Shown: one piece after another, positions 51,654 through 54,848 of the stretch
Layout: each line of letters opens with the position of its first letter
Position numbering within the stretch: the stretch's first letter is position 1
Source of the DNA: Thioploca ingrica
Lineage (GTDB): Bacteria; Pseudomonadota; Gammaproteobacteria; Beggiatoales; Beggiatoaceae
Length of the DNA stretch: 64,000 nt
Reading direction: 5' to 3'
Assembly: GCA_000828835.1 (NCBI GenBank)
Contig: AP014633.1
Span: 3,782,001-3,846,000, forward strand
Notes under the pieces: model-generated
The model's input: the letters and a program-made list of their open reading frames with translations, nothing else
Told to the model about the DNA's origin: nothing
Databases searched by the model: none
Made by a program: the position numbers and the translations under genes

Positions 51654-52085
51654 ATGTTACCTTTTACCTATCGTGAAATAGAAAGAGCGTGGCGGCAAAA
51701 TCTGAAAGTTTCCATTGTCAAAACACGCGAAAACCCTCATCGGTTGTTACTATTTTATGCAGTGGAGTGTGGTTTGAAAGCGGTTATCATGAAAAGAGAA
51801 GGATTAAGCAGGACGGATAGAAACTCTAATATTTCTCAACTTGGGCACGATATTAATGGACTGTTAGAGTATTTGAAGGTGAGAAGATTACGCCTTACCG
51901 GTGGTGTAAAGATGAAAACCATTCTAACTGGTAAAAAGCATAATGAAAACCGGCCAGTAGAACCCAAAGAACTTAACCAAATGTGGCGTTATGGTGGCGA
52001 AGCAGAGGGGATACCATCCAATGCCAACATTGAGAACCAATTGTTAAACCTTGTCAAATGGATCGAAAAAGAACTCCAACGTTAG
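51654..52085 (+). CDS. HEPN-like small protein, first gene of a putative conflict cassette
   Basis: The 143-residue protein resembles HEPN-fold proteins: LLLFYAVECGLKAVIMKREG gives the first long helix pair with the typical LKA, and QLGHDINGLLEYLKV the HD(L/I)xxLL helix. ELNQMWRYGGEAEG near 115 is where many HEPN domains have an RY pair. The RNase motif Rx4-6H is not clear, so activity is uncertain. The gene lies 9 nt before a 917-residue double NTPase and is surely co-transcribed with it. The fold call is from pattern only. Confidence 0.55.
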   Translation: MLPFTYREIERAWRQNLKVSIVKTRENPHRLLLFYAVECGLKAVIMKREGLSRTDRNSNISQLGHDINGLLEYLKVRRLRLTGGVKMKTILTGKKHNENRPVEPKELNQMWRYGGEAEGIPSNANIENQLLNLVKWIEKELQR

Positions 52086-52094
52086 GAACGTAAC

Positions 52095-54848
52095 ATGTTA
52101 CTAAAAAATTTTATAGACGTTAAACGAGTTTTCAAAGAGAAAACAGCTAATTTTACCAAGATACCGAGTAGTATTTTGCGAATAAGTTGTTTTTATGAAG
52201 GGGTAGAAATCGCTCTTTCACACCCGATTCAAAGAGACCATGTTATTTCTTTACTAAAAAATTGGTTTGGTACTTGGTTAGATGAGAAACGTCCGGTTAT
52301 TTTGCTAGATATAAACGATTCTGTGTTACCCATTGAATTTATTGAAGATGAAACCAGGAAGTATGAGAACCAACTGAATCGTCCTTTTTGGCATGAAAAT
52401 GCTTACCTGTCGAATAGTGAAGAAGCCAATCAACCAGTACCACTTCCTACCGAATTTTCCAACTCGCTTAAAATGGCGGTTTTTCACTCTTTCAAGGGTG
52501 GCATGGGGCGCACTACTCATTTGGTGGCTTATTTATTGGCTTTACTAGAACGCGCGAAAGAACTTAAACAGGAAGTGAATATATTGGTGATAGATGCTGA
52601 CTTGGAAGCCCCTGGCTTGAGCTACTGGCAACGCCAGGAAAATTTGGAACCAAGCGTCTCACTCATTGATTTTTTAGAGACTTACCACTATCCACCTACT
52701 ACTAGAGAAGCGGTCATTGCTTTTTACGCGAAGGAATTGAAACGGACACAGCATCCTTTGGGATTTTACCTATTACCCGCCTTTTTAACTGAGCGCCAAT
52801 TATTGGATCTTGAGGTGTTACCAGAGCATTTAGTACGCGATTCTGATGATATATGGGAATACAGTCAAGCGGTTGAAGAATTGGCTAAGGCTTTAGAGGC
52901 AAGTTTCGTCTTGATTGATTCGAGAGCGGGATTGAGTGAATTGGCCAGTCCGTTACTCTTTGATCCTCGATTAGAACGTTATCTCGTCACGACGTTATCT
53001 GAACAATCAGTGCGCGGAACTTGCTTGGTGCTTGACTTACTAGCCCGCATGATGCCTGATTGGCAAGCAGTTAAAGAAGGCAAGTATTTAGACCCGACAG
53101 TGGTCATCAGTATGATTCCGCCAGAATTGGTAAAATCTCCCATTTACACTGAAAACACTCAACGCCTATTGGAGTCTTACCTTGACAAGGTTACTACGGA
53201 TGATGTTTTGCCAAGACTGCAGGTGGAAGAAACCAATTTTGCTCAAGAATTGCTTCTCCTTTCTGGCTGGAACGATGCTCGCCAAAAATTGGCCGGCACT
53301 TCAATGATGAAACAGGCTAAACAATGGGCTGAAGAAACCTTGCCCATAGAAGTTCCCTCATCGTCACCTATCGGTACCCATCACCCTGGAATTGAGTCTC
53401 TTGCAGGGGTAAAAAGATTACAAGAGATTTGCAAAAAGTATGAGTATGCTGAAAGAGGTGAAAGTGACGATTTACTCATCACCGAGCCATTGAAAAATTT
53501 AGCTAAGAATCACACCGATAAACTCCCCAAGATCGTGTCTATTGGTGCAAAAGGTGCAGGGAAAACCTTTAATTACTTACAATTAGTGAATAGGGGAAAG
53601 TGGAACAGTTTTTTGCAAAAAACGGGTATTCCTACGGAAGAGCACCATAATGCCTTTATTTTTCCTCTTTTGCAATCACAGAATTTGGCGGTAGAGACAC
53701 AAAAACCGCTTACACAAGCAAGGGAGGCATTTTTACAAGCCGTTAGTAATGGTAACCCCTTTTCGCTGAATCAACTAGCCGATGAAATTACTGAGAAACT
53801 GTCTCAAAATTTAACCGAGCTTGAATGGAGAACTTTTTGGATTGACACTTTAGGTAAACTTATCAACAATCCCCACACATCTACCCCTCAACCCAATTCT
53901 CCGACGCCGACAAGTAAATTGACAGAAATGGATGTTTATTTAAAACAAAAGAACTTGCAGGTCATTTTCTTATTTGATGGGTTAGAAGAACGCTTTCCCG
54001 AAGTTGCTAAAGAACCGGCTCAACAATGTGCGCTAAGAGCACTACTTGAATTACCTAATTATTTAGGTGAAATTCGCCAATCAAGTATCGGCGTGATTAT
54101 ATTTTTACGCCGCGATTTCGTCAGATATGTGGTTCAACAAAATGTCGGACAGTTTGAAAACCGTTATGAAGCTTACGACTTATCATGGAACTTCAAATCG
54201 TTTCTTCAATTGGTTTACTGGATTTGTGCTCAAATCGACGTGATTGGAGCAACTCGTGAAAAGGTGTATGAACTTTCTACGGAAGATCTCAGGCAGCAAC
54301 TCGAATTATTTTGGGGGAAAAGACTAGGTACTGATGCTTCAAAGTATGTTTATACAGTTCGCTGGATTTATGCGGCGTTGACAGATTTCAAGGGCAAACT
54401 GCAAGCGCGAGACATTGTGAGACTTTTGTCTTTTGCAGCAGAATACACCATAAATAACAAGGATGTCTTTGAAAAATGGAAACTCACCCGCCTACTCCCT
54501 CCTCTTGCCATCCGTAAATCCATAGAGGGATGCAGTGAAAAAAAAGTCGAGGAAGCAAAAAACGAATATCCAGAGGCATTCAAAAATTGGGTAGGCGAAT
54601 TGCTCAGATTAGACCGAGAACAGCGCAAGATACCCTTTAACCCGCAAGACTTTGCTATGGAACAATCCACTATAGAAATACTTCAAGACCTCGGTGTCAT
54701 CTACGAGGATACAGAAACTGAGGGTAAGGCTCGCTTTTACATTCCGGAGATATTTCGTGCCGGACTGGGTTTTGAACATGCTGGTAAAGCGAGACCTCGC
54801 ATCATCGCTTTGAAGCGCAGAATGCTAAAGGATGCCGGAGGAGAATGA
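52095..54848 (+). CDS. KGGVGR-type ParA/MinD-like ATPase fused to a second P-loop NTPase
   Basis: The 917-residue protein has an unassigned N-terminus (1-125), then a ParA/MinD-like ATPase (about 127-420). Its deviant Walker A reads FKGGMGRTT at 133-141, with Arg where ParA has Lys, followed by VIDADLEAPGL and VLIDSRAGLSE. From about 480 a second NTPase starts: GAKGAGKT is its P-loop and VIFLFDGLEE near 620 its Walker B. The last 300 residues are helical with a winged-helix look. AGGAA precedes the start. KGGVGR-variant ATPases are known, and this layout suggests a conflict or defence role; that is inference. Confidence 0.78.
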   Translation: MLLKNFIDVKRVFKEKTANFTKIPSSILRISCFYEGVEIALSHPIQRDHVISLLKNWFGTWLDEKRPVILLDINDSVLPIEFIEDETRKYENQLNRPFWHENAYLSNSEEANQPVPLPTEFSNSLKMAVFHSFKGGMGRTTHLVAYLLALLERAKELKQEVNILVIDADLEAPGLSYWQRQENLEPSVSLIDFLETYHYPPTTREAVIAFYAKELKRTQHPLGFYLLPAFLTERQLLDLEVLPEHLVRDSDDIWEYSQAVEELAKALEASFVLIDSRAGLSELASPLLFDPRLERYLVTTLSEQSVRGTCLVLDLLARMMPDWQAVKEGKYLDPTVVISMIPPELVKSPIYTENTQRLLESYLDKVTTDDVLPRLQVEETNFAQELLLLSGWNDARQKLAGTSMMKQAKQWAEETLPIEVPSSSPIGTHHPGIESLAGVKRLQEICKKYEYAERGESDDLLITEPLKNLAKNHTDKLPKIVSIGAKGAGKTFNYLQLVNRGKWNSFLQKTGIPTEEHHNAFIFPLLQSQNLAVETQKPLTQAREAFLQAVSNGNPFSLNQLADEITEKLSQNLTELEWRTFWIDTLGKLINNPHTSTPQPNSPTPTSKLTEMDVYLKQKNLQVIFLFDGLEERFPEVAKEPAQQCALRALLELPNYLGEIRQSSIGVIIFLRRDFVRYVVQQNVGQFENRYEAYDLSWNFKSFLQLVYWICAQIDVIGATREKVYELSTEDLRQQLELFWGKRLGTDASKYVYTVRWIYAALTDFKGKLQARDIVRLLSFAAEYTINNKDVFEKWKLTRLLPPLAIRKSIEGCSEKKVEEAKNEYPEAFKNWVGELLRLDREQRKIPFNPQDFAMEQSTIEILQDLGVIYEDTETEGKARFYIPEIFRAGLGFEHAGKARPRIIALKRRMLKDAGGE

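Follow-up and report, generated by a model that had tools for sequence, protein, structure and literature searches.

Thioploca ingrica carries a two-gene unit, here called A-BC, that is probably an abortive-infection-type anti-phage system in which BC serves as the sensor or switch and A as a HEPN effector. The unit lies within a 64,000-nt stretch of the genome (contig AP014633.1, positions 3,782,001 to 3,846,000; hereafter the window), and its features are collected in Table 1. Our reading draws on predicted HEPN and MinD folds, STAND-type family matches, invariant motifs, strict pairing of the two genes and the location of mobile relatives in anti-phage hotspots; A-BC is, moreover, a fused, deep relative of a candidate already held in PADLOC-DB, namely PDC-M28. 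The original prediction, made from the letters of the window alone, had described the basic layout correctly: the two open reading frames lie on the same strand, separated by 9 nt, and the motifs KGGMGRTT, GAKGAGKT and LFDGLEE are all present.

Table 1. Features of the A-BC unit, in window coordinates
Feature	Positions	Strand	Basis
Gene A, 143-aa HEPN-fold protein	51654..52085	+	ORF, AlphaFold, VIA-align, homologue profile
E38 of A, invariant acidic residue of helix 2, in motif FYxxECGxK (K42 also invariant)	51765..51767	+	71 sequences
H65 of A	51846..51848	+	Invariant in 71 sequences; position predicted for AbiV/AF0298-type HEPN (PMC3710099)
W111-R112-Y113-G114 of A, end of helix 3	51984..51995	+	WRY invariant; helix 104-112 in model
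Gene BC, 917-aa fused double NTPase	52095..54848	+	ORF, AlphaFold, full-length alignment with 57 homologues
N-terminal alpha/beta domain of BC, aa 1-121, no fold match named	52095..52457	+	Secondary structure of model
MinD/ParA-like domain of BC, about aa 122-420	52458..53354	+	VIA-align, NCBIfam AAA_KGGVGR
Deviant Walker A, K134-GGMG-R139-T140, Arg replacing the P-loop Lys	52494..52514	+	Invariant in 58 sequences
STAND/NACHT/ORC-Cdc6-like NTPase of BC, about aa 442-849	53418..54641	+	Pfam in relatives, Foldseek, hhalign
Second Walker A, GAKGAGKT, aa 484-491	53544..53567	+	Near-invariant
Walker B, LFDGLEE, aa 626-632	53970..53990	+	D628 in 57/58, E631 in 56/58
R672-x-D674, sensor-like motif after the next strand	54108..54116	+	Both invariant in 58 sequences
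C-terminal tail of BC, winged-helix-like pattern, aa 850-917, RFYxPEIxRxGLGF	54642..54845	+	Secondary structure of model; motif also in PDC-M28C

The AlphaFold model of A, built on a 71-sequence alignment, reached a pLDDT of 95.0 and a pTM of 0.89. When this model was compared with known structures by VIA-align, the top 17 rows were all HEPN-type (Z 9.1-5.6), whereas unrelated rows scored 5.0 or less; the best match was the sacsin HEPN domain (3o10; Z 9.1 over 109 residues, 3.5 Å), and the other HEPN-type chains among the top rows included 4nqf, 1wol, 1ufb, 2hsb, Csm6 and HEPN-MNT toxins. Both sacsin and AF0298 types are represented among the best HEPN matches. Because helical bundles reach high scores easily, the uniform HEPN identity of these rows is the stronger argument, and on the strength of the predicted structure we confidently assign A to the HEPN superfamily fold, as had been supposed from the sequence. 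Foldseek returned no match for the model at E <0.1, Pfam and PDB sequence searches with A gave none that was convincing, and among the 71 A-family sequences Pfam produced a single weak PF05168 match, window A itself matching none of the Pfam HEPN families.

Seven residues of A (Y35, E38, K42, H65, W111, R112 and Y113) are invariant among the 71 aligned sequences, which come from nine phyla. In the model E38 belongs to helix 2 and R112 closes helix 3; H65 lies in the insert that separates helices 2 and 3, within which a beta hairpin is also predicted. R112 corresponds to the basic residue of the HEPN site, with no His after it: the canonical R-x4-6-H motif is absent from window A and has no conserved column pair among 73 sequences, which rules out A as a canonical HEPN RNase. 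An E/H/R layout of this kind has been described in AbiV and AF0298, for which an alternative active site was suggested, and RNA-binding roles have been proposed for HEPN proteins without RX4-6H (Anantharaman et al., 2013; PMC3710099). Judged by sequence and model placement, A would belong with this AbiV/AF0298 type (HEPN-T), sharing with it the HEPN fold, the acidic residue of helix 2, the alternative His between helices 2 and 3 and a basic residue kept where helix 3 ends, with no His following it; A differs in having no Pfam HEPN match, in its pairing with a double NTPase and in the beta hairpin of the insert. A is therefore a putative RNase.

BC was modelled with a mean pLDDT of 87.9 and a pTM of 0.59, and the packing of its domains is uncertain. 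Its first NTPase superimposes on MinD (VIA-align Z 20.3, 231 residues, 3.0 Å) and matches NCBIfam AAA_KGGVGR (NF047398; residues 126-315) at 152.5 bits, above the curated cut-off of 90. Across 58 full-length BC sequences K134, R139 and T140 are invariant, as are D167, D169 and D275. The canonical ParA/MinD signature KGGxGK[ST] is thus replaced in all 58 by a form with Arg139, while the signature lysine K134 is kept and the fold still matches. The invariance of K134 and R139 marks the P-loop arginine as a family trait rather than a sign of decay, and BC as a decayed ParA was ruled out on this ground; the prediction of a ParA/MinD-like ATPase with Arg in place of the Walker A Lys is therefore borne out.

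The second half of BC carries GAKGxGKT, DGLE and RxD in the 58-sequence alignment, and NCBIfam ATPase_Sll1717 (NF047389) matches residues 479-855 at 64.9 bits, below its curated cut-off of 75. Pfam profiles for nSTAND1 and NACHT matched 18 and 10 of 30 BC relatives, respectively (judged by E up to 0.01 rather than by gathering scores), and left the window protein itself unmatched. Foldseek with the whole BC model gave weak matches only, to Orc2 (1w5s) and to a BrxC complex (9zll). Taken with the predicted folds, these family matches support the view of BC as a MinD-like domain joined to a STAND/NACHT-type NTPase, and the predicted secondary structure makes a winged helix in the tail plausible. 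The STAND-like character expected of the second NTPase is accordingly supported at the level of the family. The profile searches suggested with the original prediction gave a mixed outcome, with AAA_KGGVGR recovered in BC, STAND profiles matching relatives only, and no HEPN profile matching A.

A scan of genomes with a single protein query gave no matches; with an alignment of four BC proteins of the window's family as the query, 80 loci were recovered in genome contigs. Of these, 78 extend far enough on the 5' side to show the gene before BC, and 76 of them have A there, immediately upstream; in 25 loci the two reading frames share 4 nt. Approached from the other side, a search with A over 398 genomes of the phylum found 12 that carry it, one copy each, and in all 12 a KGGxGR ORF directly adjoins; A is likewise present in 45 of the 46 genomes with the system, nearly always as a single copy. 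These counts make the pairing strict in both directions, and the tight association read from the window alone extends to the family. Relatives of A-BC span nine phyla and include bacteria and methanogenic archaea, and since 71 A and 58 BC members keep the same invariant residues over this range, the two proteins seen in the window are not a product of chance.

The spread of A-BC has been broad and partly horizontal. A tree of BC, some branches of which are long, requires 13 changes of phylum against a minimum of 8, and a Bacillota member and a Thermodesulfobacteriota member adjoin the window's clade; the tree mostly clusters by phylum, which indicates that long vertical stretches exist as well, a pattern that a resident function would also explain. 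A and BC are under purifying selection between near relatives (dN/dS 0.04-0.06 for a Pantoea pair, 0.06 for BC of Pantoea versus E. coli, and 0.18-0.40 for closer pairs). Of 143 relatives of the window genome, 5 gave a match. The match in genome G011 (L023:8566-8829), from a member of the same family, is a decayed remnant: an internal deletion has joined the start of A in frame to the middle of the MinD-like domain. In the draft assembly of Thiomargarita nelsonii (L055:300-935), an internal deletion and a frame change remove the conserved core of A; BC stays open despite the broken A, directly upstream of hsdM. So patchy a history is more readily explained by an accessory gene for conflict than by one with a core function. 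The GC contents of A and BC (0.40 and 0.42) are close to that of the window (0.41) and give no compositional sign of recent import. In an empty-site comparison with a genome of the same genus (G001), the MlaF neighbours differed on both sides.

The location of the mobile copies is the strongest functional hint for A-BC. The pair occurs in 11 of 5426 complete E. coli genomes, at 99.9-100% identity, and was found in none of the other 5415 at the sensitivity used; in strain EC17CM2 the P4-borne pair has accessions WP_096943773.1 and WP_016245209.1; the E. coli proteins are 45% (A) and 35% (BC) identical to those of the window. In all four E. coli loci inspected, the pair lies in a P4 satellite between a tRNA-Leu-adjacent integrase and psu, and in one of them BC is split into two ORFs. 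A viral contig from IMG/VR (IMGVR_UViG_2579778630_000001; L194) is a P2-like prophage, with PHROGs matches for portal, terminase, capsid, gpA-type replication protein and integrase, and carries A-BC between gpA and the portal gene gpQ; in a filamentous prophage (L065), the pair follows Zot. The P2 gpA-gpQ and P4 int-psu slots are known to hold diverse anti-phage systems, several of them verified (Rousset et al., 2022; PMC9122126). As a separate observation, Microcystis phage Mic1 encodes an ORF annotated as ParA (L193:6031-6651) that matches only residues 459-698 of BC, at 35% identity, and adjoins terminase, portal and flap endonuclease genes; it resembles a C domain carried on its own by a phage and is perhaps a decoy or inhibitor.

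The nearest named relative of the unit is PDC-M28, in which counterparts of all three parts follow one another in the order seen here (HEPN-like A, KGGVGR protein B and NTPase C) but as three separate genes, whereas B and C are fused in the window. With PADLOC, window A matched PDC-M28A weakly (E 0.028), and BC matched PDC-M28B (4.8e-15) and PDC-M28C (2.2e-8); by hhalign, the values were 2e-6 for A against PDC-M28A and 3.9e-16 for the C part of BC against PDC-M28C. Residues E37, K41, H66, R109 and Y110 of PDC-M28A (A8) correspond to the E/K/H/R-Y set of window A. In other classes of the window's phylum PDC-M28 is found as the three genes A-B-C. In a FastTree phylogeny of the B domain, the fused BC proteins form one group together with one further A-bearing member, with modest support, and PDC-M28B falls far from them in another group with other KGGVGR proteins. 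A B-C fusion of 915 aa also occurs inside the PDC-M28 clade, in another class of the phylum and with A just upstream (L028:91-3266), and it is independent of the window-type fusion. The separate B-domain groups and this separate fusion make the window unit a deep relative of PDC-M28 and not simply a fused version of it; with B and C joined, we file it as a fused relative rather than as PDC-M28 itself. The pair is consequently less novel than first supposed, a homologous three-gene candidate being already in PADLOC-DB. No experiment on A-BC or on PDC-M28 was found, and a literature search on KGGVGR, PDC-M28, Sll1717 and the E. coli accessions, with preprints and most supplements outside its scope, returned no paper.

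KGGxGR ATPases other than BC also occur. The window genome encodes a second one, of 966 aa (L009:6749-9951, contig positions about 3421748-3424950), whose upstream partner of 101 aa is not an A homologue and which is followed about 1 kb downstream by a HEPN/nucleotidyltransferase-like gene pair (L009:10796-11583). Several genomes from another class of the phylum hold up to five different KGGxGR ATPases, with sizes up to about 1,800 aa, which is a lineage-specific expansion.

The surroundings of the other copies give a different picture. Genes for an ABC transporter, a cytochrome and a chemoreceptor surround the window pair, and most relatives likewise lie among housekeeping genes. PADLOC matched 138 families in the 133 nearest neighbour genes of 38 loci and 181 in 131 random genes of the same genomes, a comparison that is blunt given its naive ORF calling and generic PADLOC models; with no excess over random genes, general enrichment in defence islands is unsupported, and the suggestion that homologues might lie in such islands failed this check. 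Defence genes do adjoin individual loci according to our own reading of the PADLOC matches: hsdM of a type I restriction-modification system lies 55 nt downstream of BC in Thiomargarita (L019 and L055), hsdR/hsdS adjoin the pair at L067, a methyltransferase gene at L056, and cas3/cas5 of a type I-C CRISPR locus at L099. In several filamentous cyanobacteria (L077, L080, L082 and L104) the neighbour of the pair is an ORF with the look of uvrB, and so stable a position suggests long residence. The defence role proposed at the outset therefore stands in part: the P4 int-psu and P2 gpA-gpQ hotspots, the filamentous-prophage copy and the homology to PDC-M28 speak for it, while the missing RX4-6H, the lack of neighbour enrichment and the position of the window unit and most relatives outside defence islands limit it. 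An exclusively housekeeping context, which would have told against the idea, describes the window pair but not the relatives in phage and satellite cargo slots.

Several known systems resemble A-BC in part. In the dyad of an MAE_18760-family HEPN protein and a ParA/Soj-like ATPase (PMC3710099), a HEPN gene likewise adjoins a gene for a ParA-like ATPase in a predicted conflict module; that HEPN family has RX4-6H, which A lacks, and in A-BC the ATPase carries KGGxGR and a second, STAND-type NTPase. PARIS (AriAB) and STAND NTPase defence proteins also bring an ATPase together with an effector in the int-psu cargo slot of P4 satellites (PMC9122126), although their effector is a TOPRIM or TIR domain, whereas that of A-BC is HEPN and its ATPase has an extra MinD-like domain. 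BrxC/DUF499 ATPases of the ORC-Cdc6 clade have a HEPN partner in some cases, some being fused to HEPN (PMC12839542); they resemble BC in an ORC/STAND-type ATPase with winged-helix parts, and a BrxC complex was among the weak Foldseek matches, but the A-BC unit has no methyltransferase or helicase, keeps HEPN as a separate gene and includes a MinD domain. Beside the window pair there is no minimal nucleotidyltransferase ORF of the kind that defines HEPN-MNT toxin-antitoxin modules.

Against this background, other functions for the pair have to be weighed. A could be a non-catalytic HEPN adaptor or RNA-binding subunit, with the double NTPase doing the work, and the absence of RX4-6H, the sacsin and AF0298 types among the best HEPN matches and the RNA-binding roles proposed for motif-less HEPN proteins (PMC3710099) would all suit such a part. 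We regard this as rather unlikely, since the invariance of E38, K42, H65, R112 and Y113 over nine phyla, common to PDC-M28A, exceeds what a scaffold needs, and no part of BC was recognisable as a nuclease domain. Nor do we favour a toxin-antitoxin or addiction pair, in which A would be a growth-inhibiting HEPN toxin and BC an ATP-dependent antitoxin that together stabilise mobile elements without sensing phage. Rarely would an antitoxin need a 900-aa double NTPase with STAND features, and PARIS, a comparable ATPase-effector pair of the P4 int-psu hotspot, lost its defence when either gene was deleted, with no toxic effect (PMC9122126). Such a pair is improbable in our judgement, even though the MAE_18760 dyad, of another HEPN family, was predicted to be a toxin-antitoxin module (PMC3710099), the genes overlap by 4 nt in many loci, prophage and satellites carry the unit, and Thiomargarita has lost the core of A with BC intact.

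Least of all do we expect a resident housekeeping or regulatory pair, acting for example in DNA segregation, division or repair. Its absence from most relatives of the window genome and, at the sensitivity used, from 5415 of 5426 E. coli genomes, as well as its presence in the cargo slots of satellites and prophages, outweigh the features that such a role would explain, namely the MinD/ParA fold, the housekeeping neighbours of the window pair with no neighbour defence enrichment, and the stable place beside a uvrB-like ORF in several cyanobacteria.

For the anti-phage system that we prefer, we infer ATP-driven sensing, a trigger, an A-BC complex, RNase activity and a defence phenotype. The MinD/ParA-like domain of BC would bind ATP and probably dimerise, and the STAND/NACHT-like NTPase, together with the C-terminal tail, would detect an infection signal and change its oligomeric state. 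A may be held inactive by BC, or may need BC for assembly; once released, it would act on RNA through the putative AbiV/AF0298-type site (E38, H65 and R112), by RNA damage or RNA binding, and growth of phage and host would stop.

In its broadest form, the proposal is that A-BC represents a widespread form of immunity, present in bacteria, in archaea and on P2, P4 and filamentous carriers, whose HEPN effector has a non-canonical active site and is controlled by one protein that unites a KGGxGR MinD-like switch with a STAND sensor; we put this forward tentatively, as a real possibility. If it is true, a PADLOC candidate would become a testable system with a copy in E. coli, a natural KGGxGR MinD-like domain would be seen to work within an immune switch, and the finding would bear on the 2013 proposal of an alternative active site in HEPN proteins that lack RX4-6H.
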